Source: Gammaproteobacteria bacterium
GTDB taxonomy: Bacteria > Pseudomonadota > Gammaproteobacteria > Pseudomonadales > Azotimanducaceae
NCBI GenBank assembly: GCA_004357385.1
Contig: SMWF01000044.1
Span: forward strand, 1 to 36,749
Length of the DNA: 36,749 bases
Direction of reading: 5' to 3'
Shown here: positions 9,240 through 36,680 of the stretch, piece after piece
How positions within the stretch are numbered: the first letter of the stretch is position 1
How the letters are laid out: the number at the start of each line of letters is the position of its first letter
Made by a program: the position numbers and the translations under genes
Notes under the pieces: model-generated
The model's input: only the letters and a program-made list of their open reading frames with translations
Database searches by the model: none
What the model was told of the DNA's origin: nothing

Positions 9240-9321
9240 ATTTCATACCCGCCTCAGGTGTCCCAATCCGCCGATCCGTACAAAGGGTTCCGAGTTGAAC
9301 AACCTCCGACGGAGCAGGGAC

Positions 9322-10464
9322 ATGACCCACCATCTACTCAAGCTGACCATTCTGGGGCTGACGCTGATCTGCGTCGGATGTGCAACCACGGCGGGGCTGG
9401 TACAACCACCGGTCACCGCAATATCCACCAGCGCGCGGCAGGAAGTGAACGTGCTGGCCATTCGGGGCCCGCACGCGCCGTCGATACACGTCAGCGGCGA
9501 CGAGATCGCCCGGCGGTCACAAGTGATCGGCGCCACAGCCAAGGAAGCCGGGCTCGGCTCCATCAGCGCGGGCTTTCAAGCCGGCGCTGAGGCGGGCGAA
9601 CCGCTCACCGCTATCTTCATGGCGGCCCTCGGCATCGCTGCCGCGCCCTTTGCCGCCACGGGCGGCGCCATCTATGGCGGAGTAATCTCCGACACCGACG
9701 AGGACATCAAGGCGAGCGTCCCCCAACTTCGAGCCGCACTGCAGCAGGCACCGGCCCACATGGAGCGGCAACTCAGATTGCACGCTGATGCTGATCTCAG
9801 TGGTATCCAGTACGAGTACGTGGCACCTTCCACGACCAACGAGGCGCTGCGTGAGCGCGGGTTCGACGCGGTACTGGACCTGGACATGAAGCGCCTCGAT
9901 ACGATGCCTTCCGAGAACCTGGCACAAGTCCGCCTCGTGTCGCGCAACACGGTGCGCCTTACGGACCTGGATAACGACGTCGTGCTAGCCCGACGCGACT
10001 ACCAGGCGTTCACCGACGACAAGAAGTTCTCAACCTGGGTCGGTCATGACGCCGCACCCCTGTTCGATGCACTCGATAGAACCTTCGCCGAAATCAGCAC
10101 CGACCTGATCGACGACTTCTTTCTCAACCCGTCGATCCAGGTCCAAGGGCTCGAGCCGATCGCCACAGACGCCATGCGGCGGGGGCGTATCGACAGCATG
10201 AAGCCGCTGATCCTATGGCGGACGCTTGATGCAAACATGGATCTTCCGGATGACCGTGACGTTGAGTACGAACTGCTGCTGTACACCGGATCCAAGACAC
10301 CGGACGAGGGAATTCGTGTCGCCACGGATCGCTATGTGCCTGACGGCCTGCTGGAGCATTGCAAGCGTTATCGCTGGAAGGTTCGGGCGCACTACCAGAG
10401 CTTCGGTCAGCCAGTGGCATCGCCCTGGTCGCCCGTGTATCGGTTCGGTACGCCGTGCAGATAG
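9322..10464 (+). CDS. Putative lipoprotein with C-terminal fibronectin-like region
   Basis: The 380-aa protein starts with a signal peptide (HHLLKLTILGLTLICVGC) whose Cys could be lipidated, although the residues before it (CVG) are not an ideal lipobox. A glycine/alanine-rich hydrophobic stretch follows (ISAGFQAG, ALGIAAAPFAATGGAIYGG). The last 90 residues resemble a fibronectin-III-like beta sandwich (LILWRTLDANMDL, YRWKVRAHYQS, ASPWSPVYRF). I do not recognise the family. ATG 9322 is preferred to the upstream TTG because GGAGCAGGGAC precedes it and the signal peptide begins there. Probably a cell-envelope protein. Confidence 0.75.
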   Translation: MTHHLLKLTILGLTLICVGCATTAGLVQPPVTAISTSARQEVNVLAIRGPHAPSIHVSGDEIARRSQVIGATAKEAGLGSISAGFQAGAEAGEPLTAIFMAALGIAAAPFAATGGAIYGGVISDTDEDIKASVPQLRAALQQAPAHMERQLRLHADADLSGIQYEYVAPSTTNEALRERGFDAVLDLDMKRLDTMPSENLAQVRLVSRNTVRLTDLDNDVVLARRDYQAFTDDKKFSTWVGHDAAPLFDALDRTFAEISTDLIDDFFLNPSIQVQGLEPIATDAMRRGRIDSMKPLILWRTLDANMDLPDDRDVEYELLLYTGSKTPDEGIRVATDRYVPDGLLEHCKRYRWKVRAHYQSFGQPVASPWSPVYRFGTPCR

Positions 10465-14860: not shown

Positions 14861-15907
14861 TTAACCCGCTGCAGCTACCGAGTCGTGCAAGTCCGAAATC
14901 GCATCGAACTCGCGCAGGATGCGTTGTCCATCCGATGCTTCGAGGATGCGCTGGCGCACAGCGGCGTATTGGTTCTCGGCCGCCAGCCGCGGTTGCTCGA
15001 CGGTCGCCCAGCCGATCAGCCCATCCCAGAAACGATCCAGCAGCTCGGCGCCCCTGATGGTACCGCCGTCCACGGTCTTGAAATTCAACTCGCGCAGTTC
15101 GCCAAGGTACAAGCACAACGAACGGACATGGATTTCCTCATCGGTGCGAATCCGCTCGATGATCTGCGCGGCTTCCTCGGCATCGGCACGACGATCCGCG
15201 AACAGGTCCGGCGTCCTTAACACCTCCTGGGTGCTGGCAAAGCCGATCTCGGCGCGGAACTCGATGACCAACAGGTTCATCAGGAAGCTCAACAACCCCT
15301 CGTACTGCGGCTCGATTTCCGGCATCGAGCGGGTGCCCAGCTCCGGCCTCGAAATGTTCTCGGGGGGTTCGACGTCGGGGTACGCATCGGGTCCAAACGC
15401 CAGATCCCGAGCCACGAACCACATCACATCGTGACCCCCGATGCCCTTGTCCGGCTCACCCCCCTCATCGATGCCATGGGCCGCAAGCAGGCCTTTGTTC
15501 AGGTGCCCGATCGCCATCTCGGAGATGTCTTCCTCGATGAGGTCCTGCAAGTCGGGAAACTGCATTTCGGCAAGCATCCGGCCGCGGCCTTCGATCTTGC
15601 CGGTGATGGTCAGGCCGTTCCAGAAGGTCTGGCCGAGGCCTTCTCGCAGCAGCATCCGTTGCTGCTCAGTGTTCGGCACGCGCGGGCCGGACAGCAACGA
15701 GGAGTCCGCGTCCAGCAGGTCTCCACCCCGCGCACGCAGCGCTTCCGCCCAATGGGCAAGCGCCTCTTCGCGATCCATGGCGCGCGGTGGCACGTAGTTG
15801 CCCTGCGCATCGAATCCGCCATGCAGGCGTTGACCGCCGATTTCGTGCGGGCGAGCATAGTCGTGGCTGCGAAACAGCTCTTCTTCGGTGTACGTCAACT
15901 TGGTCAT
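14861..15907 (-). CDS. Ferritin-like protein with one DExxH motif, function unknown
   Basis: The protein of 348 aa is mostly helical. A DEEIH sequence at 256-260 is a DExxH di-iron ligand motif, with Glu220 (or 216) 36-41 residues before it in the helix LVIEFRAEIGF. The other half of a di-iron site is less clear: SEMAIGH at 129-135 has Glu and His too far apart for ExxH. I therefore read it as a ferritin-like or oxygenase-like fold with an unusual or partial metal site. It resembles neither of the two di-iron-type proteins at 23799-26014 closely. It is divergent from the CoA-transferase operon. A good ribosome binding site (aaggacagaca) precedes the ATG. Confidence 0.65.
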   Translation of the reverse strand: MTKLTYTEEELFRSHDYARPHEIGGQRLHGGFDAQGNYVPPRAMDREEALAHWAEALRARGGDLLDADSSLLSGPRVPNTEQQRMLLREGLGQTFWNGLTITGKIEGRGRMLAEMQFPDLQDLIEEDISEMAIGHLNKGLLAAHGIDEGGEPDKGIGGHDVMWFVARDLAFGPDAYPDVEPPENISRPELGTRSMPEIEPQYEGLLSFLMNLLVIEFRAEIGFASTQEVLRTPDLFADRRADAEEAAQIIERIRTDEEIHVRSLCLYLGELRELNFKTVDGGTIRGAELLDRFWDGLIGWATVEQPRLAAENQYAAVRQRILEASDGQRILREFDAISDLHDSVAAAG

Positions 15908-16081: not shown

Positions 16082-17293
16082 ATGGCAACTCGCACGGGAC
16101 CGCTGGCGGACGTCACCATCATCGACTGCACCATGGCGCTGGCCGGTCCGTTCGGCACCGCCCTGCTGGCCGATCTGGGCGCGGACGTAATCAAGGTCGA
16201 ACCACCGACGGGCGATATGTCACGCAGCCTGCCCCCGTTGCCGGCCGACTATGCGAACCCCAACGCCAAGGACCCAGCCGGTTGCGATTTCGGCGGCTAC
16301 TTCGCCAGCGTCAACCGCAACAAACGCAGCATTGTCCTGGACCTCAAACAGGTCGACGATCGCGAGACGTTCCTGAGGTTGTGCGAGTCCGCCGATGCGG
16401 TGGTTGAAAACATGCGGGTCGGCGTGATGGACCGACTCGGGCTGAGCTACGAAGTCATCGCCGCGCGCAATCCCCGCATCGTGTATGGGGCGATTCGCGG
16501 GTTCGGCGATCCCAGAACCGGCGAGAGTCCCTACGCGCGGTGGCCCGCCTACGACATCGTCGCACAGAGCATGGGCGGCGTGGCCCACATCACGGGCTCT
16601 GCAGAGGGCTCCGGCTACCCCTGCGGCGCGAGCGTGGGTGACATCTACCCGGGTACATTAATTGCGCTGGGCGTCACCGCGGCGATCCATCACGCCCGCG
16701 CCACAGGCGTCGGCCAGTTCGTCGATGTCGGCATGTACGATGCAACCCTGCTGCTGTCGGAAACCGCGATCGTGAACTACGGGTACAACGAGACCGTGCT
16801 GGGTCCTCGCGGCGCCCACCACCCCAACCTCTGCCCCTTCGGCATATACCCCGCCCTGGACGGCGGCGTATCCATTGCCGCACCTGGACCGGCGCACTGG
16901 CAGGCATTGTGCGAAGCCATGGACCGCGAAGACCTCGTCACCGACGCGCGAACCCACAACACACACCTGCGCAGTCGCAATCACACGTTCGTGGAACAGG
17001 TCGTGGCGGACTGGACGGGACAACGCACCCGCCAACAGGTGATCGACGCGATTGGCGGCCGCGTCCCCTGCGGACCGGTCAATACCGCCGCAGATATCTT
17101 CGCCGACCCCCACGTTCGAGCGCGCGCAATGATTTCCGAGTTCGAGCTACCCGGAGACAACGGCCGGGTCTCAATCGCGGCCAATCCCATTAAATTCACG
17201 GCTACGCCCACGAATCTACACCGGCGCGCGCCGCTGCTCGACGAACACGGCGATGAGATCCGTGCGGAATTCCAGACAGGAGGCAATGCATGA
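16082..17293 (+). CDS. CaiB/BaiF (family III) CoA-transferase
   Basis: Moves CoA from an acyl-CoA donor to a carboxylic acid, activating it without ATP. The 403-aa protein shows the family's N-terminal DCTMALAGPFGTALLADLGADVIKVE, the NRNKRSIVLDLK motif, and GASVGDIYPG with the predicted catalytic Asp at 187. The start follows ggggaggcaacc. It overlaps the next gene by ATGA, so it is the first gene of an operon with an SDR and a MmgE/PrpD protein. Together they look like an activation and oxidation module for an unknown organic acid. Confidence 0.94.
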   Translation: MATRTGPLADVTIIDCTMALAGPFGTALLADLGADVIKVEPPTGDMSRSLPPLPADYANPNAKDPAGCDFGGYFASVNRNKRSIVLDLKQVDDRETFLRLCESADAVVENMRVGVMDRLGLSYEVIAARNPRIVYGAIRGFGDPRTGESPYARWPAYDIVAQSMGGVAHITGSAEGSGYPCGASVGDIYPGTLIALGVTAAIHHARATGVGQFVDVGMYDATLLLSETAIVNYGYNETVLGPRGAHHPNLCPFGIYPALDGGVSIAAPGPAHWQALCEAMDREDLVTDARTHNTHLRSRNHTFVEQVVADWTGQRTRQQVIDAIGGRVPCGPVNTAADIFADPHVRARAMISEFELPGDNGRVSIAANPIKFTATPTNLHRRAPLLDEHGDEIRAEFQTGGNA

Positions 17294-19422: not shown

Positions 19423-20562
19423 TCAATAGCCACCCAGTTCGGCAAATCGGTTGCGATGGTAAGTCGAATCGCCAAGCAGCAGTTCGGATACGCGCGCACG
19501 CTTCATGAAGAAGCCGATGTCCGCTTCATCGGTCACCCCCATCCCGCCGTGCATCTGAATGCCTTCCTTGCCGCACAGTCGGTAGGTGTCCGACGCGCGA
19601 GCCTTGCAGGCACTGGCCAGCATGGCTTGTTGTTCGCGTTGCTCATCGATGGCCCGCAGCGCATCCATGACGATCGAACGCGTCAGTTCCACCTCGCAGA
19701 ACCAGCGTGCGGCGCGATGCTTCAGCCCCTGGAAGGTGCCGATCTTGACGCCAAACTGATCGCGCTCCTTGAGGTATTCGACGGTACGATCAAAAGATTC
19801 CTGGATGCCGCCCAGCATCTCCGCGGAAAGCGCTACCGCGGCGCGTGCAAACACCTCGTCGAGCACATCGGCCCCGGTTCCCGGGGCACCCAGCACCGAG
19901 TTGGATTCCACCCGGACATTATCGAGTTCGATGTTCACCGCACAACGGCTGTCCAGCAGCACGTTCCGTTTCAGGGTCAGTCCGGGGACGTCAGAGGCCA
20001 CCAGGAACAGAGTCAGGCCGTCCCGGTCGCCGGTCGAGCCGCCGGTCCGCGCGGCAACAACCAGCAAATCCGCCGACTCACCATCCAGCACCAGAACCTT
20101 GCGCCCGCTCAACAGATAGTCGTCCCCATCCAACCTCGCGGCCGTTGCGATAGCGTAGGGATCGTGGCGCGGACTTTCCTGGTAGGCCAGCGCCAACAGC
20201 CGGGTTCCGTCACACACGCCCGGCAGCAGCGATTTGCGCTGCGCATCGTTACCGCCGAGTGCAACCGCGCTGCCCGCCAGCACGATGCTGGACAGGAACG
20301 GCGCGACCACGAGCCCACGCCCAAGCTCCTCGAGAACCACGCCAAGCTCTGCATAGCCGAGCCCCAGGCCACCGTATTCCTCCGCGAATGGAATGCCCGT
20401 CCAGCCCAACTCGGCCATCTGCTTCCACAGGTCCTCGTCGTGACCGCGACCGGAACTCATGGAGCGCAGCTTGCGCAATCGATCGATGTTCCATTGATCC
20501 GCCACAAAGCCGCGCGCGCTGTCACGCAGCAATTCCTGTTCTTCCGTCAGCACCAGGGCCAT
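19423..20562 (-). CDS. Acyl-CoA dehydrogenase, small-subunit (PimD/FadE-like) type
   Basis: FAD-dependent acyl-CoA dehydrogenase of 379 aa. Recognisable parts are LTEEQELLRDSARGFVADQW, YLKERDQFGVKIGTFQGLKH and IQMHGGMGVTDEADIGFF. The C-terminus YHRNRFAELGGY lacks the usual ExGT..IQ motif of homotetrameric enzymes, as in the small partner of heteromeric dehydrogenases. It lies 9 bases after a large-type dehydrogenase gene, the arrangement known for alpha2beta2 acyl-CoA dehydrogenases of steroid side-chain and pimeloyl-CoA degradation. It is the last gene of an eight-gene minus-strand cluster and a paralogue of the protein at 599-1744. Confidence 0.93.
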   Translation of the reverse strand: MALVLTEEQELLRDSARGFVADQWNIDRLRKLRSMSSGRGHDEDLWKQMAELGWTGIPFAEEYGGLGLGYAELGVVLEELGRGLVVAPFLSSIVLAGSAVALGGNDAQRKSLLPGVCDGTRLLALAYQESPRHDPYAIATAARLDGDDYLLSGRKVLVLDGESADLLVVAARTGGSTGDRDGLTLFLVASDVPGLTLKRNVLLDSRCAVNIELDNVRVESNSVLGAPGTGADVLDEVFARAAVALSAEMLGGIQESFDRTVEYLKERDQFGVKIGTFQGLKHRAARWFCEVELTRSIVMDALRAIDEQREQQAMLASACKARASDTYRLCGKEGIQMHGGMGVTDEADIGFFMKRARVSELLLGDSTYHRNRFAELGGY

Positions 20563-20571
20563 CCTCGATCC

Positions 20572-21771
20572 TCAGTCCGGCAAGCCAAGCACCCGCTTGG
20601 CGATAATGTTCATCTGAATCTCGGAGGTACCACCGAGAATGGTCCCGGCCTTGCCATACAACCAGCCACGGGTCATCTCACGCTCCTCCGCGGGCACGTC
20701 TTCGCCGTCCCAGACCAGCGAAACGTGGCCCACGAGGCGTTGCCGCAGGTCGGACCCGCGTTGATTCATTTCGGACAGGTAGAGTTTGAACATGGAACTC
20801 TCCGGGCCCATCCCCTGGCCCGCTTTGGCCGCATCGGTGCTGCGTTGATACGTGGCGCCGTAGCAGAGCCTATCCATCTCATACTGCACGAGTTCGTCGC
20901 GCAGGCCGGCGTCCGGGAGCTGCCCTTCGGGGGTCGCCAACGACTCGCGAGCCACCTCGAGCAGCGATTGGCGGCGCGTCGATGCGCCGGATCCGACCCC
21001 CGTGCTCTCGGCGAGCATGGAGCGTTCGTACTGAAGCAGCCGCTTGGCGATGGTCCAGCCCTTGTTCTCCTCGCCAACACGATTCCCGATGGGCACCCGC
21101 ACGTTATCGAAGAAGGTCTCACAGAACGGTGACGCACCACTGATCAACTCGATCGGTGACACCGACACACCTTCGGTTTCCATATCGACGAGCACGAAGC
21201 TGATGCCGTCGTGCTTCGGCACCTCGGTGTCGGTGCGTACCAGGGCGAAGATCCAATCGGAGACATCGGCGTCCGAGGTCCAGATCTTCTGGCCGTTGAT
21301 GGTGTAGTGGTCGCCCTCCCGAACCGCGCGACACTGTAATCCCGCCAAATCCGAACCGGCACCCGGTTCGCTGTAACCCTGGCACCAGCGGATCTCGCCC
21401 CGAGCTATCTTAGGCAGGTGTTCGAGTTTCTGTTCTTCCGTGGCGTATTCCATCAGCACCGGGGCCAACATGGCCATGCCGAACGAAAACAGAGGCGAGC
21501 GCGTCCCGATGGCACGCATTTCCTCGCGCAGCACCTTGTCCTGCTCCTCCGTCAAGCCCGCGCCACCGTACTGCGTCGGCCATCTCGGAACCGTCCAACC
21601 GCGCTCGATCAATCGCTCCAGCCAGATTTTGACGTCGTCATGTGCGAAGGTTTGCCGCCGGCCGCCCCACACCACATCCGGGAGTACGCTGTCCGGGCCA
21701 CGGGCGCCGGCGGGGCAGTTGGCCTCCAGCCAATCCCGGGCTTCGCTGCGAAAGGTCTCAATGTCGCTCAT
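20572..21771 (-). CDS. Acyl-CoA dehydrogenase, large-subunit (PimC-like) type
   Basis: The 399-aa acyl-CoA dehydrogenase carries RWPTQYGGAGLTEEQ in the N-terminal domain, WCQGYSEPGAGSDLAGLQ at the flavin/substrate region, INGQKIWTSDADVSDW, and the C-terminal GGTSEIQMNIIAKRVLGLP. The residue matching the classical catalytic Glu before GT (YEGT in MCAD) is Gly here, so the base must come from elsewhere or from the partner; this is common in heteromeric types. With the small-type gene 9 bases downstream it probably forms one alpha2beta2 enzyme. The start ATG follows ggaaggacac. A run of 17-bp repeats lies just upstream. Confidence 0.94.
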   Translation of the reverse strand: MSDIETFRSEARDWLEANCPAGARGPDSVLPDVVWGGRRQTFAHDDVKIWLERLIERGWTVPRWPTQYGGAGLTEEQDKVLREEMRAIGTRSPLFSFGMAMLAPVLMEYATEEQKLEHLPKIARGEIRWCQGYSEPGAGSDLAGLQCRAVREGDHYTINGQKIWTSDADVSDWIFALVRTDTEVPKHDGISFVLVDMETEGVSVSPIELISGASPFCETFFDNVRVPIGNRVGEENKGWTIAKRLLQYERSMLAESTGVGSGASTRRQSLLEVARESLATPEGQLPDAGLRDELVQYEMDRLCYGATYQRSTDAAKAGQGMGPESSMFKLYLSEMNQRGSDLRQRLVGHVSLVWDGEDVPAEEREMTRGWLYGKAGTILGGTSEIQMNIIAKRVLGLPD

Positions 21772-21780
21772 GTGTCCTTC

Positions 21781-21840
21781 CGGATCAGAATGCGCGCCGG
21801 ATCAGAACGCCCTTCGGATCAGATGCCCTCTAAATCAGAA
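21781..21840. repeat. Degenerate 17-bp tandem repeat (three to four copies)
   Basis: Copies begin at 21781, 21798 and 21815, each starting cggatcaga, a 17-bp period. A weaker fourth copy (taaatcagaa) at 21831 runs into the SDR stop codon. They fill the gap of 63 bases between the SDR stop and the dehydrogenase start within the minus-strand cluster. Slippage is a likely origin, and a regulatory use is possible. Confidence 0.55.
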
Positions 21841-22617
21841 TGAATAGTAACCGCCGTCGATGAGAAACGTCTCCGCGGTGTGATAGTCGCTCGCGGTGCT
21901 CATGATGTAGACCGCGATACCCGCGAAGTCAGCCGGATCCCCCCAGCGACGCATCGGCACCCGCTTCATCACATTGTCATAAAACCTGGGGGTGGCAAAC
22001 GTCGCTTCGGTCATCGAGGTTTCGATCCAGCCCGGGAGAATCGTGTGCGCGGTCACGCCGTAGCGGGCATATTCTATGGCCAATGCCTTGATCATCGACA
22101 CCAGCCCACCCTTGGTGGCCGCGTAGTGCTCGCCTCGTGCCTGACCCGAAATCGCGGCGAGGCTGGCCGTGCCGACCAAGCGACCAAAAGCATCGCCCTG
22201 GGTGGCGCGCTCCTTCATGTGCCGGGCAGCGCAGCGAAAGGTATAAAACACTCCAGTCTGATTCACCTCGACGACCCGATGCCACTCCTGACTGGTCATC
22301 TCGTCGAAGGCGGTGCCACGGCCGCCGATTCCCGCGTTGGCAAAGCAACCATCGACGCGTTGGTGCAGTTCCAGTGTGCGCGCGAAGCTTTCATTCACCT
22401 GGGTTTCATCGGCGACATCACAGATCAGCGCCGACACCCGTGGTCCGATGCCCGACAGCGTCTCCAATGCCCGGGCATTCTTCTCTTCATTGGTGCCCCA
22501 GATGCACACTTCGCAACCGGATTCGGCCAAACCGCGGGCCATGCCGAGCCCAATCCCACTATTGCCTCCGGTGATCAGCGCCACCCGGCCGGACAGATCA
22601 AAAGCTGCCAGGGTCAC
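21835..22617 (-). CDS. SDR family oxidoreductase
   Basis: Classical short-chain dehydrogenase of 260 aa with TGGNSGIG at 17-24, NAG at 94-96 and the catalytic Ser152, Tyr165 and Lys169 (YAATK). The C-terminus (TAETFLIDGGYYSF) is usual. The start is GTG at 22617, seven bases after the stop of the FmdB-like gene, with only a weak ribosome binding site, so translation may depend on read-on ribosomes. In this cluster it would oxidise a hydroxyl or reduce a keto group of the lipid or acyl-CoA intermediate. The substrate is not evident. Confidence 0.92.
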   Translation of the reverse strand: MTLAAFDLSGRVALITGGNSGIGLGMARGLAESGCEVCIWGTNEEKNARALETLSGIGPRVSALICDVADETQVNESFARTLELHQRVDGCFANAGIGGRGTAFDEMTSQEWHRVVEVNQTGVFYTFRCAARHMKERATQGDAFGRLVGTASLAAISGQARGEHYAATKGGLVSMIKALAIEYARYGVTAHTILPGWIETSMTEATFATPRFYDNVMKRVPMRRWGDPADFAGIAVYIMSTASDYHTAETFLIDGGYYSF

Positions 22618-22624
22618 AGGCCGC

Positions 22625-22909
22625 TCAGTCTCGCTTCGCGCCGGTGAACGGCGTCATCTTCTTCAGCAATCGATGTTCATCGGCGCTGGCGCTATTGCGC
22701 ATCGAGGCATCGATCATCTTTTCGTATCTGGGATCGAGCTTCGCGGTCTTGGCGTTGTTCGATGCGTGGTACGCACTACTGCCGATCACCCGGTAGGTGT
22801 CATCGCTCTGACAGTGCTCACAGCCGATCGCGGCGACCTGCTCAGCCACCGACAACAACCGATCGGTCAGCTCGCCGCATCTGCGGCAGCGGTACGAGTA
22901 AATCGGCAT
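22625..22909 (-). CDS. FmdB-family zinc-ribbon protein
   Basis: Small protein of 94 aa starting MPIYSYRCRRCGE, the signature of FmdB-type putative regulatory or metal-binding proteins. Cys8, Cys11, Cys30 and Cys33 form two CxxC/CxxC-like pairs suitable for one zinc ion. The C-terminal half is charged and disordered-looking. The upstream frame to 22981 is not needed, because the family begins at MPIYSYRC. FmdB proteins often sit in oxidative or acetamidase operons, with no settled function. Here it lies between an SCP2-like gene (28 bases upstream) and an SDR (7 bases downstream), inside the cluster. Confidence 0.87.
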   Translation of the reverse strand: MPIYSYRCRRCGELTDRLLSVAEQVAAIGCEHCQSDDTYRVIGSSAYHASNNAKTAKLDPRYEKMIDASMRNSASADEHRLLKKMTPFTGAKRD

Positions 22910-22937: not shown

Positions 22938-23342
22938 TCAAGCGGCGCGAGCGCCCGCCTCGGCGCGCGCGCCTGCATCAATGAACGCCTGCACTGAGAG
23001 GTGATAACGCAGGAAGTCGAGCTTTTTGCGTGGATTGATCGCCTTCACCACGCCATCCACGTTGTCCAACTCCGCAAGTGTTGCGCCTGTGCCGGTGGTC
23101 CGCCCCTCGAGAAACGAATCCCAGCCGTCCTGACTCATCTCGACGACGAAATCGGCGTCCCGCAGCTGCGCGACCTTGATCTTGCGCACGTCGTGACAGG
23201 TGAAACCACCGAAGGTCACCAGGAACGCGGCACTGCCCACCTTGATCCCCATCTCTACATCGACGCTACCCAGCGCGCGGAACGCCGGATCACCATTGAT
23301 CGCGTTCTGCGCCGTCTTCAACCACTTTGCGGTGAGTGCCAC
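22938..23342 (-). CDS. SCP2-like putative lipid-carrier protein B
   Basis: Protein of 134 aa, start GTG at 23342 (VALTAKWLKTAQNAINGDP). The pattern W..L...N.D followed by KVG....LVTFGG, then DFVVEM and W74, resembles the sterol-carrier-protein-2 fold, a hydrophobic lipid-binding pocket. It is paralogous to the neighbouring protein at 23354-23794, sharing the W.K..Q...N.D, KVG, F.G..C and DF..EM....W positions. A C-terminal extension is Ala/Arg-rich. Start choice rests on the alignment to the paralogue; the frame runs on to 23669, but that part overlaps the neighbour. Function as a carrier or subunit is inference. Confidence 0.65.
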   Translation of the reverse strand: MALTAKWLKTAQNAINGDPAFRALGSVDVEMGIKVGSAAFLVTFGGFTCHDVRKIKVAQLRDADFVVEMSQDGWDSFLEGRTTGTGATLAELDNVDGVVKAINPRKKLDFLRYHLSVQAFIDAGARAEAGARAA

Positions 23343-23353
23343 GAGCCGTCTCC

Positions 23354-23794
23354 CTAGTCGAACGTCGTTTCGACGCGCGAGCTCGCATCGAAAAAATCCT
23401 GAAAGTTCTGGTTGAAGCGATAGAACAGATCCTGCCGCGCCTGATCGTCTTCCGGCGAGTACGCAATACTGTCGTCCTGCCGCAGATCGATACTGTTCAG
23501 CGTTTGATCGTCGTGCGCAGCGCCGTGCTCCTGAATGTTCTCCACCATCGCCTTCCACAATTCCGGCGCCATCTCGATGATGAAGTCGGTCTCGGGGGAT
23601 GCCAGCTCCGCTTCGCTGGCGGAGCGAATCTCCAGGCACTGGTGGCCTTCGAACACGATCCGGTAGCACTCGTCGCCGACCTTGAAGGCGGCCGTGGTTT
23701 CACACGCGCCACCGCCTCCCGTGTGCAAGCTGCTGTCAGAATTGTAAACCTCCTGGACTTCTTTGAACCAGGCTTCTGAAGGGAATCGTGCCAT
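23354..23794 (-). CDS. SCP2-like putative lipid-carrier protein A
   Basis: Protein of 146 aa with the SCP2-like pattern: Trp9 (AWFKEVQEVYNSD), then FKVGDECYRIVFEGHQC at 37-53, DFIIEM at 70-75 and Trp80. It aligns directly with the protein encoded 11 bases downstream (22938-23342), so the two are a duplicated pair and may form a heterodimer. The C-terminal tail (about 95-146) is acidic and unlike known SCP2 proteins. It starts four bases after the stop of the di-iron paralogue gene, suggesting coupled translation. SCP2 domains bind sterols and acyl-CoAs; the ligand here is unknown. Confidence 0.65.
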   Translation of the reverse strand: MARFPSEAWFKEVQEVYNSDSSLHTGGGGACETTAAFKVGDECYRIVFEGHQCLEIRSASEAELASPETDFIIEMAPELWKAMVENIQEHGAAHDDQTLNSIDLRQDDSIAYSPEDDQARQDLFYRFNQNFQDFFDASSRVETTFD

Positions 23795-23798
23795 TGCG

Positions 23799-24890
23799 CT
23801 AATACACCAGGTACTTCTTCAACATCGGATTGAGGTTTTCTTCACGCGGCACACCGATCCATTCGCCCAGCGCGAGGTAGTCGCGGACAAAATCTCCGAC
23901 GCCGTGCAGATAGGTTTCCATGCCGATGGTCCGCCCACCCTCGATGCCGCCGCCCAGCAGCACCGCCATGGCCGACCCCATGGTTCCCTCTTTGAGCTCG
24001 GTTCCCATGATGCTCTCGCCGATGGCCAGCAGGGTTTGCAGGATCCGATCCTGGCCGACATGGTGGGTGACGGCGTACTTCAGATGATCGTAGCCGTAGG
24101 TCAGATGACGGGCATGATCCTCGATGCAATGGCTGAAGATGAAACGTTCCGCATCGTTATGCGCCGCGTTCAACAGCATCCGGTACAGCGCCATCGTATA
24201 GGTGCCCCGCAGCAGGTACAGATAGGTAACCGACTCCGTCCAGCCGCCGCGGCTCTCCAGAATCATCCGATTCACCGATCCGCGCTGTTCGATCCCCAGC
24301 CCACCGCCATTGGCCAGTGCGCGCTTGCGGAAGGCCTCAATGTGTCGCGCACAGTCGAAGGTGGCCGTTGCGAGGAACTGCTTCACCTCGAAGTAGCCAT
24401 AAGACATCTGACCCTGCCAGTAGGTGATTATCTCGAGTTCGGTATTGGCATACTGGCAGAACTCGGTGCAGATCTGGCAGATTGCCCGTTCCACTTCTTC
24501 GGGCAACGGCTCGAGGCTCCCCCACGGGACTTCGGTGGCCGGAATCCAGCGACGTTGGATGGCTTCCTCGTAGAGGTCGGCGGCGCAGTCTGCCCACATC
24601 TCGTGCTTGCGGCGCAGGTTGTAGGGTAGCGGCGGAATGCCGGGACGCGGCAAAGCGCCACGCGGCCGGCGCGTGTGATCGTTCCACTCTTCGGGGACCT
24701 CACCGTAGATACCCACGTTGAGATCGCCAAGGCGCAGACCGTGTTCACCGGGCTTGACCCGCACCCCCCATTCGTTCGACAAGCCCATCCATTCATAGGT
24801 GGGTTCAGGCACACCCTCCACCTGAGGGCCGTCGTCATCCCCAGCTGATACGGCAGCCGGCACCGCGGCGCCGGCGTCTTTGTCCGCCAT
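23799..24890 (-). CDS. Degenerate di-iron-type protein, pseudo-enzyme paralogue
   Basis: The 363-aa protein aligns without gaps over its helical core with the upstream neighbour (24947-26014), with identical blocks such as FRKRALANGGGL and EPLP. All helix glutamates expected to bind iron are changed: the first-helix Glu is Gln or Ala, DEARH becomes DCARH, the third-helix Glu is Gly, and the second DEARH becomes DHARH. The histidines remain. A di-iron site is therefore unlikely. By analogy with PaaC beside PaaA, I infer a structural or regulatory partner of the canonical protein. The N-terminal 30 residues are disordered-looking and Ala/Asp-rich. A strong ribosome binding site (gggggagact) precedes the ATG. 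Confidence 0.8.
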   Translation of the reverse strand: MADKDAGAAVPAAVSAGDDDGPQVEGVPEPTYEWMGLSNEWGVRVKPGEHGLRLGDLNVGIYGEVPEEWNDHTRRPRGALPRPGIPPLPYNLRRKHEMWADCAADLYEEAIQRRWIPATEVPWGSLEPLPEEVERAICQICTEFCQYANTELEIITYWQGQMSYGYFEVKQFLATATFDCARHIEAFRKRALANGGGLGIEQRGSVNRMILESRGGWTESVTYLYLLRGTYTMALYRMLLNAAHNDAERFIFSHCIEDHARHLTYGYDHLKYAVTHHVGQDRILQTLLAIGESIMGTELKEGTMGSAMAVLLGGGIEGGRTIGMETYLHGVGDFVRDYLALGEWIGVPREENLNPMLKKYLVY

Positions 24891-24946
24891 AGTCTCCCCC
24901 AGCTTTTGTTGGTGCGCTCGGCCTGTGTTGCTACCGGCGGGCGCTA

Positions 24947-26014
24947 CTAGTATGCGGCTGCGTATTGCTCCGGAATCGACGACCGCCCGTTCTCGAAGCG
25001 CTCGCCGAACCCGGCACTCTGCACCCGTTTCATGTACTCCTTGAGCTGTCGACGACGGATCACCAGCAGCATCTTATGACCTTCGTCGTAGTGCGCTTTG
25101 CCGCCCCCGAGCAGAATGGCCAGCGCCTCGGAGGTTTCCGCCTGGGTACCCGCCGGATTCTGCAATCCCGCCATGATCTGGGCTTCGGCCTCGTCGAGGT
25201 AACACTCTATTTCGGGGCGCCGCTCCGGCGCATGTTCGCAGAGAAAACGCAGATGCATGACGCCAAACGCGACGTGTCGTGCTTCGTCCTGAGCGCAGAG
25301 TCGATACATGCGCTTTTCGGCGTCGTTCTGACCCATCAATTCGCCCATGCGGAACATGGTCAGCACCGCGCCTTCACCCGAGATATGCAGCCGGGTCGAC
25401 ATTTCGGTGAAGTCGCGCGCCAGATCGATGCTGCCGATAAATCCGGACGTGGCCCCTGACATGCGCATCAAGCCGCCGCCGTTGGCCAGCGCCCGCTTGC
25501 GAAACACGTCCATGTGCCGTGCTTCGTCCATGACCTGAGCGATCAACACGTGGCGCGCCTCGAAAAAGTCCGGACTGGTCTTGGCAATCCAGCGTGCCGG
25601 TACGTCTCCCGCGACGAATTCCACCTCGTTGAAGAAGGTGCACAGCAGACATTCCGCCTCCTCGATATCGTCCGGCAGGGGCTCGATGGTGTGCCAGGGA
25701 ATATCAGTCGCCGAGCTCCATTGGCGTTGCAGCGCTTCCTCGTAAAGGAAGGTCGCATTCTCGAGCCAGATCTCCGAAAGATTACGAACCCCGTAAGCAC
25801 CGACCCGGTAGGCCTCGGGTCGTGGCGTCGCACCGCGGGGTCGCCCGGTCATGTTGTCAGTGGTCTCCGGCAACTCGCCGTACTCGCCGATCTGAATTTC
25901 AGCCAAAGTCAGGCCGCGCTTGCCCGGTTTCGCCTTGATACCCCACTCGCCCATCTGGTCCATCCAGCTGGTATCAAGCTCGTGCTCCTGCTCGCGAACC
26001 GGTGCCTCGCTCAT
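24947..26014 (-). CDS. Putative di-iron oxygenase (R2/AurF-like ferritin fold)
   Basis: The 355-aa protein carries two copies of the di-iron oxygenase pattern E-X28-37-DExxH: Glu130 (or Glu132) then DEARH 163-167, and Glu214 then DEARH 243-247. These six ligands match the carboxylate-bridged di-iron sites of AurF, CmlI and class I R2 proteins. The substrate cannot be told; an oxygenase or desaturase acting on a lipid or acyl-CoA is my inference from context. An N-terminal segment (MGEWGIKAKPGKRGLTL) is shared with the next gene's product. It is the first gene of the eight-gene cluster, 100 bases after cysNC on the same strand, with ribosome binding site gaggg. Confidence 0.85.
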   Translation of the reverse strand: MSEAPVREQEHELDTSWMDQMGEWGIKAKPGKRGLTLAEIQIGEYGELPETTDNMTGRPRGATPRPEAYRVGAYGVRNLSEIWLENATFLYEEALQRQWSSATDIPWHTIEPLPDDIEEAECLLCTFFNEVEFVAGDVPARWIAKTSPDFFEARHVLIAQVMDEARHMDVFRKRALANGGGLMRMSGATSGFIGSIDLARDFTEMSTRLHISGEGAVLTMFRMGELMGQNDAEKRMYRLCAQDEARHVAFGVMHLRFLCEHAPERRPEIECYLDEAEAQIMAGLQNPAGTQAETSEALAILLGGGKAHYDEGHKMLLVIRRRQLKEYMKRVQSAGFGERFENGRSSIPEQYAAAY

Positions 26015-26114: not shown

Positions 26115-28004
26115 CTAGATGAGTTCGAGTACCCGCTCGACGCACTGCTCCACCGACAGATCCTTTGTCGACAGGATCAGCTCGGCGGTTTCCGGTTCCT
26201 CGTAGGCGCTGTCGATGCCGGTGAAGTGCGGCAATTCGCCCTTTCGGGCCTTCTTGTACAGACCCTTGGGATCCCGTTCCTCGGCCACGTCCAGCGACAC
26301 GTCGAGATAAACCTCGACAAATTCATCCGCATCGAACAACGCCCGCGCCATGTCCCGCTCAGAACGAAACGGTGAGATGAACGCGGTCAGCACCACCAGC
26401 CCGGCGTCGACCATGAGCTTGGCCACCTCCGCGACACGGCGGATGTTTTCCACTCGGTCCGCGTCGGTGAACCCGAGATCCTTGTTGAGTCCGTGGCGAA
26501 TATTGTCGCCGTCCAGAACATAGGTACAGATGCCGCGAGCGTGGAGCACCTGTTCGGTGGCGTTGGCGATGGTCGACTTGCCGGACCCGGAAAGACCGGT
26601 GAACCACAGCACCTTGCCCTCGTGACCATGCAGTTTGGCGCGCGCTTCCTTGTCCACAGTGAGCGCCTGACGATGCACGTTTTTAGCGCGTCGCAAGGCG
26701 AAGTTGATCATCCCGGCCGCCACCGTGGCGTGGCTGTACCGATCCACCAGGACGAACGAGCCCATGCCCGCACAATCCTTGTAGGCTTCGAACGGTACGG
26801 CTTTGTCGAAGCTCAGCGTCACGCGGCCGATTTCGTTCAGTTCGAACTCGTGCGACGACATCTCCTCGAGGGTGTTGATGTTGTACTTGTGTTTGATCTC
26901 GGTGAGCGTGGCATTGATCCGCGTGGTACCGAGCATCAGCCAGTAGGAGCGGCCGATGAAGCCATGCTCCTGATCCATCCACACCAGGGACGCATCGAAC
27001 TGGTCCGATACCTCGCATGGATCATCCGCCGCCACCAGCACGTCACCGCGCGACACATCGACCTCCCGATCGAGGGTGATGGTCACCGCCTGATCGACGA
27101 TCGCCGAATCCAGGTGGTCCTTGTACAGCACGATATCGGCCACCTTGGCAACTTCGCCCGAGGGCAGCACGCGCACCTCCTGACCCGTGCGGATGGCGCC
27201 GGCCACCACGGTACCCGCATAGCCCCGGAAGTCGGCGTGGGGCCGGTTCACCCACTGCACCGGAAAGCGGAAGGGGTGCTCCAATTGCGCGGTGCGCACC
27301 TCCACCGTTTCAAGGTACCCCAGCAGCGTCGGGCCGCTGTACCAGGCTGTACGTCGTGAACGCTCGATGACGTTGTCCCCCAGCAACGCGGACAGGGGAA
27401 TCGCAGTGACCGTCTTAAAGTCGAGTTGGCGCGCGAATTCCATGTAATTGCTGAGAATGTCGTCGAACACGATCTTGTCGAAATCGACCAGATCCATTTT
27501 GTTGATGGCGAGCACCACGTGGCGAATGCCCAACAGGGAGGCGATGAACGAATGTCGCCGGGTTTGCGTCAGCACGCCTTGCGATGCATCGACCAGGATC
27601 ACCGCTACATCGGCAGTCGATGCCCCGGTGACCATGTTGCGGGTGTACTGTTCATGTCCCGGCGTATCGGCGACGATGAATTTGCGGTGATCGGTGTTGA
27701 AGAAACGGTAGGCAACGTCGATGGTGATGCCTTGCTCGCGCTCGGCAGCAAGCCCATCGACCAGCAATGCGAAATCGATCTCTCCTCCCTGGGTCCCCTG
27801 CTTCTTCGAGTCGGCTCGCAGCGCCGTCACTTGATCCTCAAAGATCATCTGCGCTTCGTACAGCATACGGCCGATCAACGTGCTCTTACCGTCGTCGACG
27901 CTGCCGCAGGTAATGAAGCGCAGTAGGTCGAGACCCGATTGAGTTGCAATGTACTCGTCGACGCGTGCTTCGAGTTCCGCCTCGACCGAGAGTGCTTCGC
28001 TCAT
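26115..28004 (-). CDS. cysNC: Sulfate adenylyltransferase subunit 1 fused to APS kinase
   Basis: Bifunctional enzyme of 629 aa (CysN-CysC, NodQ-like). The N-terminal GTPase has the P-loop GSVDDGKST (34-42), DTPGHEQY and NKMD; it is followed by elongation-factor-like beta barrels. The C-terminal APS kinase begins near residue 463 with [12 protein letters not shown] and contains the [10 protein letters not shown] and ISPFRSERD motifs. With CysD it converts sulfate and ATP to APS, then phosphorylates APS to PAPS. The start overlaps the cysD stop as TGATG. No PAPS reductase (cysH) lies in the window, so PAPS could serve either assimilation or sulfotransfer. Confidence 0.97.
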
Positions 28005-29497
28005 CAGAAGTACCCCTCCTGTTTCTTTTTCTCCATGGACCCGGATGAATCGCTATCGATCGCCCGGCCCTGGCGTTCGCTGGTGCGGCTCTGCAACAGC
28101 TCCAACACGATCGCCGGTAGATCGTCAGCCGTGGAATCGAATGCCCCGGTCAGCGGGTAGCAGCCCAGCGTTCTAAACCGAACGCGCCTGAGCTGTATCT
28201 GTTCGTCCTCGAACAACCGCATCCGATCGTCGTCAACCAGGATCAGCATGCCGTCGCGCTCTACCACCGGCCGTTCAGCGGCAAAGTACAACGGGACGAT
28301 GGGGATCTGTTCGCGATAAATGTACTGCCAGATGTCCAGTTCGGTCCAATTGGACAGCGGGAAAACCCGGATGCTTTCGCCGGGATTCTTATAGCCATTG
28401 TAGAGGTTCCACAGTTCCGGGCGCTGATTCTTAGGGTCCCAGCGGTGTGTTTTCGTGCGAAACGAGAACACCCGCTCCTTGGCCCGGCTCTTCTCTTCGT
28501 CGCGCCGCGCACCACCGAAGGCAACGTCGAAACCGTGTAAATCCAGGGCCTGCTTCAGTCCCTGGGTTTTCATCACGTCGGTGTGCAGCGCGCTGCCGTG
28601 ATCGAAGGGATTGATGTCTTTCTGCACCCCTTCCGGATTGATGTAGACGATCAGTTCCATGCCGCTTTCGCGCACCATCTCGTCGCGGAACTGATACATC
28701 GCCTGGAATTTCCAGCGGGTGTCGACATGCATCAGCGGAAACGGCGGCACGCTGGGGAAAAATGCCTTCTTTGCCAGATGAAGCATCACCGAGCTGTCTT
28801 TGCCTATCGAGTACAGCATCACGGGGTGCTCGGCCTGGGCCACGACCTCACGCATAATGTGCATGCTCTCGGCTTCGAGGCGGTCGAGGTGGGACAGGCC
28901 CTCCCCCGGTTCGGTCCTTGGAATGATCGACTCGTAGTCCATCGACGCCTGGGTCGCCTGGTGGGCAAAGGTCGCGATGCGCGCCAGGCCGCCACCGGGA
29001 AGTTCGAGGCTGTGGGTTTTCGCCGCCGAGACGAGTTCGCGGCAGAGCCGGGTTACCTCGCCGTGCGGCCAGACGATCAGCGACTTGCCTGCCGCCAGAA
29101 CTTCGAGTCCCTGCAGCAGGGCGTCGCCTTCCGGCGCCGCGGCGTCGAGATAGACCCAGCGCCGTCCCAGTCGGCCGTCGTTGGCAAACAGCATCAAACC
29201 CGCCTCGTGTGTGCGATGCAGCTGTATCACCAGCGACAGCATACGTTTACGTCTGGCTTCGGCTTCAAAGTACTGGCACACCAGACGCAGGGGTGCACGG
29301 CCCTGTTCGTCGCGCAGCTGGTCCAGTTTCAGGGAGTCGGGCAGAAAGCCCGACTTTTCCAGCAACCGCTCGGTCGAGCGCAACGTCTGGTCGCTGCCGT
29401 CCTGCGTCAGCACTTCGTGTACCGATGCGGTGTCCCAGAACAGCGGGCGGTTCCCTTCTCCGATCCGATTCGAGTAGATGTCCTTCGGAAGATCCAT
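28004..29497 (-). CDS. cysD: Sulfate adenylyltransferase subunit 2 with extra N-terminal domain
   Basis: The C-terminal 300 residues are a complete Cys[23 protein letters not shown]-loop [32 protein letters not shown] and the ending [11 protein letters not shown]. CysD normally starts at about [11 protein letters not shown]; here about 200 residues precede it in frame. This part ([34 protein letters not shown]) matches no family I recognise. ATG 29497 is preferred to the TTG at 29578, because a promoter-like sequence covers the upstream stretch, though its ribosome binding site is weak. An internal start giving a normal CysD cannot be ruled out. cysNC follows with a TGATG overlap. Confidence 0.9.
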
Positions 29498-29549
29498 GCA
29501 AATATACGGAGACGGGATGGTGTCGCAAAACGCGATTGTACCGATAAAT

Positions 29550-29578
29550 AGTACATTCGCAAGGCCATAAATCGTCAA
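29550..29578 (-). promoter_or_regulatory. Candidate sigma70 promoter of cysD-cysNC
   Basis: Minus strand TTGACG (29578-29573), a 17-base spacer, then TGTACT (29555-29550); TACTAT two bases further on is an alternative -10. The region is more AT-rich than its surroundings. The downstream ATG at 29497 fits a leader of about 45 bases. Confidence 0.5.
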
Positions 29579-29645: not shown

Positions 29646-29671
29646 ACGCAATGCGAGTCACGCAATGCGAG
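29646..29671. repeat. Two 12-bp direct repeats upstream of the LLM oxidoreductase
   Basis: acgcaatgcgag occurs at 29646-29657 and 29660-29671, a 14-bp period, 33 bases before ATG 29705. Related attgcg(t/a)cac words lie nearby at 29614 and 29630. A regulator-binding array for the divergent cysD and oxidoreductase genes is possible. Confidence 0.4.
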
Positions 29672-29704
29672 AATTGCAGCCACATCGCGCTGGGAGGACG
29701 CACG

Positions 29705-30790
29705 ATGGACCGAATGAACGAACTCGGCTTCTACACGCTGGCCGGTGCGCCACGCTCGCCCCGGGATCTGATCGCCGAAGTTCAACAGGCCGAGGTGCTG
29801 GGACTGGGGTCGGCGTTCATCTCAGAACGCTTCAACATCAAAGAAGCCGCCACCCTGTCCGGCGCGGCGGGCGCTGTGTCCACGCATATCGGCATCGCAA
29901 CGGCCGCGACCAACCACAACACCCGACATCCGATGGTGACCGCCGCCTATGCGATGACCATGCACAAACTCACCGAAGGCCGATTCTCGCTCGGTCTGGG
30001 ACGAGGCATTGATCGGGTGTTCGATGCCTACGGGCTGGCCCACATCAAAACCGCGCAGATCGAAGACTTCGTCGGCCTGATGCGGCGCATCTGGCGCGGC
30101 GAAACGGTGATCGCTCACGACGGCCCGGCGGGGAAATACCCGCTCCTGTCCATGGGCCCCGAATATGACGAGCACATTCCAATGACCTTTACCGCATTCG
30201 GACCCAACTCGCTGGCTCTGGGGGGCCGAGCGTTCGACGCGGTGGTTCTGCATACGTTTTTCACCGACGAAACGACCACCCGTGCCGTCGCGACCGTCAA
30301 GCAGGCCGCCGAGCAAGCCGGCCGCGATCCCGCCTCGGTCAGAGTGTGGTCCTGCTTTGCGACCATCGGCGACCACCTGCCCGAGGCGCTACGCCTGAAA
30401 AAAACCGTTGGGCGCATGGGCACCTACCTGCAGGCCTACGGCGATCTGATGGTGCGCACCAACGACTGGGATCCCGCCGTGCTCGCACGCTTCAGGGCGG
30501 ATTCCTTCGTGGCCGGGTTTCAAGGTGCGCTGGATGCCCTGGCCACGCCCGAGGAGCTCGAACACGTGGCCACCCTCATTCCGGAACAGTGGCTGGCCGC
30601 GGCCGCGACCGGGACGCGCGAGCAGTGCGTGAAGATGATCCGCGCCCAGTTCGATCTCGGCTGCGACGGCGTGATCCTGCACGGCGCCAGCCCTGCCGAA
30701 CTGGAACCGATCATCAGCGGGTATCGGGATGCACGACCCGTTGGACGGTTCGATCGGCTCGCTGCCAACCCGGCGGGATACGCCGGCTAA
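29705..30790 (+). CDS. LLM-class oxidoreductase, F420-type (MSMEG_2249-like)
   Basis: Luciferase-like TIM-barrel flavin or deazaflavin oxidoreductase of 361 aa. The N-terminus MNELGFYTLAGAPRSPRDLI, then SAFISERFNIKEAATLSGAA and ATAATNHNTRHP, are the pattern I know from the F420-linked MSMEG_2249 family (TIGR03857). The middle EGRFSLGLGRGI is also typical. Whether this organism uses F420 or FMN cannot be settled here. ATG 29705 is preferred because GGGAGGACGCACG precedes it and the family begins at this point. It is divergent from cysD across a repeat-bearing region and convergent with the DUF429-like gene. Confidence 0.88.
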   Translation: MDRMNELGFYTLAGAPRSPRDLIAEVQQAEVLGLGSAFISERFNIKEAATLSGAAGAVSTHIGIATAATNHNTRHPMVTAAYAMTMHKLTEGRFSLGLGRGIDRVFDAYGLAHIKTAQIEDFVGLMRRIWRGETVIAHDGPAGKYPLLSMGPEYDEHIPMTFTAFGPNSLALGGRAFDAVVLHTFFTDETTTRAVATVKQAAEQAGRDPASVRVWSCFATIGDHLPEALRLKKTVGRMGTYLQAYGDLMVRTNDWDPAVLARFRADSFVAGFQGALDALATPEELEHVATLIPEQWLAAAATGTREQCVKMIRAQFDLGCDGVILHGASPAELEPIISGYRDARPVGRFDRLAANPAGYAG

Positions 30791-35741: not shown

Positions 35742-35840
35742 CACTCCCTCCCCAAGTAGTGGTCAATCGGCAAGACGTCTAGTATGCAGAATCGCGACGG
35801 ATGCACCAATGCTAACCAGGGGCCAAAAAGGGGGCAAGGA

Positions 35841-36680
35841 ATGAGAGTGGGTGTTTCGCTGCCGGTCCGGGAGCTCGAGAACGACATAGGCGCGATTAGA
35901 GCATTTGCCCAGCTCGCTGACGACCTTGGTCTGACGCATCTGCGTGTACCAGACCAGGTGCTGCGACCCGACAGCGGACATCTGCACGAACCAATGACAC
36001 TGCTGGCCTACCTCGCCGCGGTAACCGACAGAATCGAGTTGGTTCCTTCGATCATCGTGCTGCCATCGCGACAGACCGCACTGTTCGCCAAGCAGGCCGC
36101 GGAGCTGGACGTTCTCTCCGGTGGCCGCCTGCGGCTGGGTATCGGTGTTGGGAACAGCGCCGACGAATACCGGGCACTGGGCGCGGACTTCTATACCCGC
36201 GGCGTCCGCTGCGACGAGCAGCTTGAGCTACTCAAACTGCTTTGGACCCGGGATGTGGTGGACTACCATGGCCGTTGGGACACGGTTTCGGGCGCAGGCT
36301 TGAACCCGCTGCCGGTGCAACGACCCATTCCCATCTGGATCGGCGCGAGACCCGTACCGGCCGCTTCGGTTGCGCGCCGCATCGGCCGACTGGCCGACGG
36401 CTGGTTCGTGTTGTGTTCGCCTGAACAATTCTGCGACATCAACGGCGCGATCCGCGGCGAAGCGGAGGCGGCGGGACGCAATCCCGATATGATCGGCACG
36501 GAAGCCGGTGTCGCGGTCGTCGGCCCTCGCCAGTCCGAGTGGAAGGATCGCGTCGCGGGCTGGCGCCGTACCGGGCTGACCCACCTCTGCCTGCGCACTC
36601 TCGGCGCCGGTCTCGAGGCCAAGCAACACCTCGACACCCTGAAGCAGGCCGTGGCCGAGCTCCCCGAAACGGAGCAGTAA
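35841..36680 (+). CDS. LLM-class oxidoreductase, F420-type (Rv2161c-like)
   Basis: Luciferase-like oxidoreductase of 279 aa. The N-terminus MRVGVSLPVRELENDIGAIR, the segment VPSIIVLPSRQTALFAKQAA, then GGRLRLGIGVGNSADEYRALG and PIPIWIGA are those of the TIGR03619/Rv2161c-type group usually linked to F420. ATG 35841 has aagggggcaagga upstream; a longer frame from 35784 adds a polar tail with no similarity. It is divergent from the aldo/keto reductase and followed 4 bases later by the next gene, so it starts a new operon leaving the window. FMN use is the alternative. Confidence 0.88.
   Translation: MRVGVSLPVRELENDIGAIRAFAQLADDLGLTHLRVPDQVLRPDSGHLHEPMTLLAYLAAVTDRIELVPSIIVLPSRQTALFAKQAAELDVLSGGRLRLGIGVGNSADEYRALGADFYTRGVRCDEQLELLKLLWTRDVVDYHGRWDTVSGAGLNPLPVQRPIPIWIGARPVPAASVARRIGRLADGWFVLCSPEQFCDINGAIRGEAEAAGRNPDMIGTEAGVAVVGPRQSEWKDRVAGWRRTGLTHLCLRTLGAGLEAKQHLDTLKQAVAELPETEQ

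Follow-up and report, generated by a model that had tools for sequence, protein, structure and literature searches.

A predicted di-iron oxygenase paired with a ligand-less paralogue in a conserved gene cassette of uncultured bacteria

The locus described here raises the question of why a predicted di-iron oxygenase should be encoded next to a paralogue of itself that has lost the ligand glutamates. It lies in a stretch of 36,749 nucleotides, called the window, which is contig SMWF01000044.1 (positions 1 to 36,749) of assembly GCA_004357385.1, from a gammaproteobacterium of the family Azotimanducaceae. The two genes are on the reverse strand: alpha (24947-26014, 355 residues) is the predicted catalytic subunit, a ferritin-like di-iron carboxylate protein, and beta (23799-24890, 363 residues) is its ligand-less paralogue. 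The original prediction saw in them a two-subunit oxygenase with a pseudo-enzyme partner. The results below support that proposal, which is incomplete in that proteins of predicted SCP2 fold and a zinc ribbon also belong to the conserved unit. The answer that we favour, and consider probable, is a single two-subunit oxygenase in which alpha would activate O2, beta would be a metal-free structural partner, and the SCP2-fold neighbours would hand over a lipophilic, perhaps coenzyme A (CoA)-linked, substrate.

Alpha and beta are 36% identical over 305 columns in a BLASTP comparison, and because the E-value is 1e-63, the resemblance is not due to chance. Their alignment had been described as gapless, and it nearly is; there are 9 gap positions in the 305 columns, two of them together in the stretch that links ligand helices 2 and 3. 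The ligand motifs of alpha are present as predicted: E130/E132 on the first helix (the codon of E132, the likely ligand, is at 25619-25621), D-E164-A-R-H167 on the second (25514-25525 for E164 to H167), E214 on the third (25373-25375) and D-E244-A-R-H247 on the fourth (25274-25285 for E244 to H247). The replacements in beta are also those that had been claimed, namely E130 to Q146, E132 to A148, E164 to C180 (DCARH), E214 to G229, which follows R228, and E244 to H259 (DHARH). Both histidines are retained in the beta of the window (H183 and H262, equivalent to H167 and H247 of alpha). This does not extend to the beta family, where, among proteins with a letter at the position, H167 is kept in 47/71 and H247 in 49/70.

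The extent of glutamate loss was followed across the family by scanning 84,980 species genomes with the alpha alignment, a search that favours alpha-like proteins; it gave 229 relatives, of which the best 80 were analysed. Together with the window, these 80 loci provide 81 alpha and 76 beta open reading frames (ORFs), corresponding to 80 and 75 distinct proteins. Loci L003-L010, which came from a search of the window's relatives, are left out of the residue counts. Letters are present at all five Glu columns in 70 of the 75 distinct betas, the other five being cut by contig ends. E132, E164, H167, E214, E244 and H247 are kept in all 80 distinct alphas, which gives an E / ExxH / E / ExxH layout on four ligand helices, and E130 is Asp in one of the 80. 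This layout occurs in 0/70 betas, none of which has Glu at any of the five columns. Instead, alpha-position 164 is A (50), C (12) or otherwise G, N or S; position 214 is G (63) or otherwise A, T or L; and position 244 is K (45/70), H (11) or otherwise L, R, V, F or A. Two other positions also separate the subunits: 213 is Arg in 70/70 betas versus Gly in 80/80 alphas, a residue that is beta-specific within the window's branch, and 250 is Tyr in 70/70 betas versus Phe in 75/80 alphas.

A further 21 partners, fetched individually, likewise have no Glu at 132, 164, 214 or 244. The original prediction had asked whether homologues of beta usually keep the glutamates, and at these four positions 0/91 partners do. 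Ligand retention in alpha and glutamate loss in the partner is a family trait. In catalytic proteins of the sister lineage, E132 is kept in all those examined and E130 is Gln in 4/21 (0/15 in one set and 4/6 in the other). The first-helix ligand is more likely to be E132 than E130, because E132 is kept by every catalytic protein examined and lost by every partner examined, whereas E130 varies and is often kept among the 21 further partners.

The assignment of alpha to the di-iron proteins draws on its ORF, the family alignment, the fold and its homology to an AurF-like protein. The helical core of its predicted model matches the ferritin-like helical bundle of known di-iron oxygenases, and profile comparison shows homology to an AurF-like protein encoded in the same genome. 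VlmB and AurF are its nearest relatives by sequence (6d9f/8wvr, E 0.0056) and by profile, and they have the same ExxH layout. They differ in that alpha has no PF11583 (AurF) match at E 0.1, with Pfam giving only DUF455, below cut-off, and in that two AurF-like (PF11583) genes occur separately in the window's genome (L001 and L002; C136:2429-3061 and C63:22075-22788). Neither alpha nor beta matches the Pfam family of PaaA/PaaC or of bacterial multicomponent monooxygenase hydroxylases, beta has no Pfam family match at all, and a beta profile finds no match among PDB sequences. Alpha is also far below the cut-off of the R2lox model NF006200 (26.1 versus 194 bits). R2lox carries a Tyr-Val ether cross-link, and we know of no comparable cassette around it. 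Judged from sequence, alpha/beta is best read as a separate branch near VlmB, AurF, ADO and R2lox.

Uncultured bacteria that carry the pair belong to three phyla and include SAR202-type Chloroflexota, Acidobacteriota and Pseudomonadales. Beta is downstream of alpha in 75/80 loci. When the count is limited to the 61 loci whose contig continues for 3.5 kb or more past alpha, beta is found in 60, at least one SCP2-like gene in 60, two SCP2-like genes in 54 and the zinc ribbon in 56. Among 200 genomes of the window's family there are 60 alphas scoring above 520 bits, in 58 genomes, and 58/60 have the partner within 1 kb; the two exceptions are one extra alpha (L063) and one that is split over contigs. 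These two samples, with beta adjoining in 60/61 loci with room and in 58/60 alphas, bear out the co-occurrence of neighbouring paralogues that had been put forward as a test. In the same 200 genomes, the oxygenase is found in 65/66 of those with an SCP2-like gene. The pair occurs in 8 of 390 genomes sampled from the order, all 8 within the window's family, and a match is found in 98/294 genomes of a Dehalococcoidia sample, in which at most 6 candidates per genome were scored. Where sequence-record names are given for the listed proteins, they read 'hypothetical protein' or 'ferritin-like domain-containing protein'.

Several apparent gaps in this pattern lie at contig ends or are filled elsewhere in the genome. 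At L086 and L088 the contig ends at most 0.3 kb past alpha, and a beta-profile search picks up the start of beta there. L087 and L089 have alpha alone, and in the same genomes beta is found at another place, grouped with a zinc ribbon and an SCP2-like gene. Genome G417 was considered as a beta-less genome, and this is mostly resolved: 2/4 of its alphas hit contig ends with the first beta residues, and C-terminal fragments of beta are on two other contigs. Three copies of the system (L017, L063 and L076) are in CAMAVY01... records titled Klebsiella pneumoniae; the label looks wrong, because their coordinates are identical to those of G026, a Pseudomonadales-type genome of the window's family.

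The beta gene is not decaying. The possibility that it is a pseudogene is ruled out by the 75 distinct beta ORFs (5 of them cut at contig ends) and by ratios of nonsynonymous to synonymous substitution (dN/dS) of 0.012-0.109, in 7/10 comparisons, those with unsaturated dS. In the pairs that can be measured, beta is under purifying selection. Its divergence is on average 1.5 times that of alpha, and the distances of the two are correlated (r 0.85, 51 non-redundant pairs), with 0/999 permutations as high. Of the 25 ligand-less partners in a 64-protein tree of hand-picked loci, 24 fall into one clade (support 100/100). The 25th (L134, genome G015) is on a very long branch and is unplaced; it may represent a second origin of the ligand-less partner. 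Two independent origins were considered as an explanation and were not adopted: the tree as it stands calls for two changes, but the data do not reject one origin (approximately unbiased test, p-AU 0.359). L134 itself is a very divergent set, with the order SCP2-like, ligand-less partner, catalytic gene, and it adjoins a CoA-transferase.

Alpha and beta are followed on the same strand by three further genes of the cassette. S1 (23354-23794, 146 residues) is confidently predicted to have an SCP2 fold: its AlphaFold2 model has a mean predicted local distance difference test (pLDDT) score of 95.7, and the best PDB matches are SCP2 proteins, including UbiJ structures. S2 (22938-23342, 134 residues from a GTG at 23342) is a paralogue of S1, and its SCP2-like fold is presumed from this homology. 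The last gene (22625-22909, 94 residues from an ATG at 22909) encodes an FmdB-type zinc ribbon, conserved in the cassette, with a CxxC-18-CxxC pattern; it scores 42.5 bits with PF09723 (cut-off 34.4) and 44.4 bits with TIGR02605 (cut-off 31.3). CxxC-n-CxxC is found in 50/60 cassette zinc ribbons, and the others lack a Cys, have one shifted or are not matched by the pattern. A rubredoxin was considered and rejected, as the only PDB sequences that a profile search brought up were weakly matching GATA-type zinc fingers (best E 0.018). In L083-L085, L090, L135 and L136 the order is alpha, beta, zinc ribbon and one SCP2-like gene, while in the window's branch the zinc ribbon comes after a pair of SCP2-like genes. 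Assembly in the order catalytic gene with SCP2, then partner, then zinc ribbon, then SCP2 gene duplication is plausible.

The principle of a catalytic subunit with a ligand-less paralogue is already known. In PaaA/PaaC, a catalytic di-iron subunit is joined by a structural partner of the same fold, with 17% mutual identity, and acts on a CoA-linked substrate (PMC4498308). The pairing of genes is alike here, with a predicted catalytic subunit and a related, probably structural partner, as also in MMOH alpha/beta. The differences are that alpha/beta is a separate sequence family, that its members are 36% rather than 17% identical, and that SCP2-fold and zinc-ribbon genes are added; in the neighbours scanned (9/28 recurrent clusters) no reductase gene was seen. 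Among the open-access PMC papers listed, as judged by titles and abstract openings, none describes the pair, the cassette or its graded series; the original prediction likewise knew of no description of the family.

Alpha would bind two metals (Fe/Fe or Mn/Fe) and activate O2, and alpha and beta would form a heteromer as PaaA and PaaC do. Beta, its metal site emptied, would probably be a structural subunit of the PaaC kind (PMC4498308), which builds up the dimer and might also form a wall of the substrate channel. Its invariant Arg, beside the lost E214, and often a Lys, may fill the emptied site. The role of the SCP2-like proteins would be to present a lipophilic substrate. There is a model for this in UbiJ, a longer protein with a coiled coil, whose SCP2 domain is proposed to hold a hydrophobic intermediate within the multi-enzyme complex of ubiquinone synthesis (PMC9499169). 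UbiJ structures match S1, and the difference is that S1 and S2 are free-standing and encoded beside a di-iron-type oxygenase. The zinc ribbon could be an assembly or an electron-transfer part. It is a candidate electron donor only by elimination, because no reductase is seen among the neighbours scanned, and since its PDB matches are merely weak GATA-type zinc fingers, the role of electron carrier is only a guess. The reaction would be a hydroxylation or a similar O2-dependent step in the breakdown of alicyclic or terpenoid-type acids, for which the acyl-CoA dehydrogenases and family III CoA-transferases in the vicinity are the only hint.

A number of observations weigh against a single two-subunit oxygenase. 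The predicted model of alpha is poor overall (mean pLDDT 62.6), and PF02036 (SCP2) matched 1/26 S1/S2-type sequences, at E 0.086 and below the gathering score. Loss of every ligand glutamate is complete only in the window's branch: in the set of 21 further partners, E130 is kept by 16, position 214 is Asp in 10 and position 164 is Asp in 2. No reductase or ferredoxin turned up in the neighbours scanned (9/28 recurrent clusters), nor a reductase in the cassette itself, and the correlation of alpha and beta distances could come from shared inheritance alone. Some catalytic genes are also solitary. L063 is an extra alpha whose genome also has two pairs, and the tandem alphas of G417 (L113, contig C68, 5976-7166 and 7760-8923) have full ligands and no adjoining partner. 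In five Chloroflexota genomes (L124, L125, L128, L129 and L130) a sister-type catalytic gene has no neighbouring partner, the ligand-less partner and an SCP2-like gene being on another contig; the assemblies with unlinked partners are fragmented, and the contig of L129 ends 0.6 kb after the catalytic gene. Finally, five catalytic relatives in four genomes (L118-L122) have an adjoining SCP2-like gene and no beta there. In two genomes, G740 and G756, the beta-profile search finds only the catalytic gene itself. L118-L122 fall outside the alpha and beta clades, at a fork of modest support (87/53) in a midpoint-rooted tree. As they do without an adjoining beta, the fold itself does not require one.

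These partnerless relatives, together with seven genomes in all in which a solitary catalytic gene and a partner are on different contigs, would fit beta being a separate substrate- or regulator-binding protein, derived from an enzyme and merely sharing the operon of alpha. This is unlikely given the adjacency in 60/61 loci with room, the co-presence within genomes where the genes are unlinked, and the correlated distances over the 51 pairs. Slightly less likely still is a biosynthetic role as an N-oxygenase or azoxy-type enzyme, as in its nearest relatives AurF and VlmB, rather than as a catabolic C-H oxygenase. Alpha lacks a PF11583 match, no biosynthetic genes are found among the scanned neighbours, family III CoA-transferase genes are recurrent, and acyl-CoA dehydrogenases come after the cassette in the window.

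Beta could also be a metal-free redox subunit and not a dead enzyme. The precedent is class Ie ribonucleotide reductase R2, whose QSK and VPK variants are metal-free, with three ligand glutamates replaced, one of them by Lys (PMC11846895). Beta shows a comparable Lys at the helix-4 ligand position in 45/70, and at positions 213 and 250 Arg and Tyr are invariant (70/70 each). The helix-4 position, 244, varies widely, however (K, H, L, R, V, F, A). Alpha-position 171, which we take to match the radical Tyr of R2, is Phe or Leu in 68/71 betas, and a redox role of this kind is very improbable.

The two-subunit oxygenase with its carriers, if correct, would invite a broader proposal, which we put forward tentatively and hold somewhat less likely to be right than wrong. 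Here, the cassette would stand as a class of its own, and a new one, among the multicomponent di-iron oxygenases. SCP2 carriers would replace the usual coupling protein, the carrier-held substrate would dock on an alpha-beta hydroxylase and be oxidised, and the invariant Arg would plug the emptied site of the partner. It would have arisen in a stepwise series, from catalytic gene with SCP2, through gain of the partner, to the five-gene cassette, and would have spread in SAR202-type Chloroflexota, Acidobacteriota and Pseudomonadales to oxidise recalcitrant alicyclic carbon.

The enzymes proposed for the attack of SAR202 on sterol-like or stable organic carbon are flavin monooxygenases, dioxygenases and enolases, and 'ferritin' and 'diiron' have 0 occurrences in the main text of that survey (PMC6946804). 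The alpha/beta family is a further conserved, so far unnamed candidate for attack on stable carbon by abundant uncultured ocean bacteria such as SAR202. The cassette also ties SCP2-type lipid carriers to a di-iron-type oxygenase. In addition, it offers a graded natural series, from a partnerless catalytic protein to a near-constant ligand-less pair, by which the question of why di-iron oxygenases gain pseudo-subunits becomes directly testable.

The genes around the cassette give weak hints of substrate. The run continues on the reverse strand, with intergenic gaps of less than 70 bases throughout, in the order alpha, beta, S1, S2, zinc ribbon, short-chain dehydrogenase/reductase (SDR) and two acyl-CoA dehydrogenases. 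The SDR oxidoreductase (21835-22617, named by family match) lies outside the conserved cassette, and the dehydrogenases are also not conserved with it; their best NCBIfam models, both below cut-off, are the pimC large subunit (20572-21771) and the pimD small subunit (19423-20562). A family III CoA-transferase is at 16082-17293 on the strand opposite to the cassette. Its homologues occur in 25/80 loci, 23 of the matches being downstream of alpha, on its strand and within 6.5 kb, and CoA-transferases are also present at L121 and L134. With the acyl-CoA dehydrogenases of the window, they hint at CoA-linked acids as substrates.

Elsewhere in the window, three ORFs of 348-389 residues (1735-2817, 9295-10464 and 14861-15907) are without a Pfam match at E 1e-5. 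A defence system was considered and set aside, as PADLOC gave no match. Upstream of alpha, a CysN-CysC-like fusion (26115-28004) adjoins a gene for a CysD-like sulfate adenylyltransferase subunit of 524 residues with a long N-terminal extension (28004-29578, reverse strand), both named by reading of the sequence. Two luciferase-like monooxygenase (LLM) oxidoreductases are on the forward strand (29651-30790 and 35784-36680), the first of which exceeds the cut-off of the F420-type model TIGR03857.
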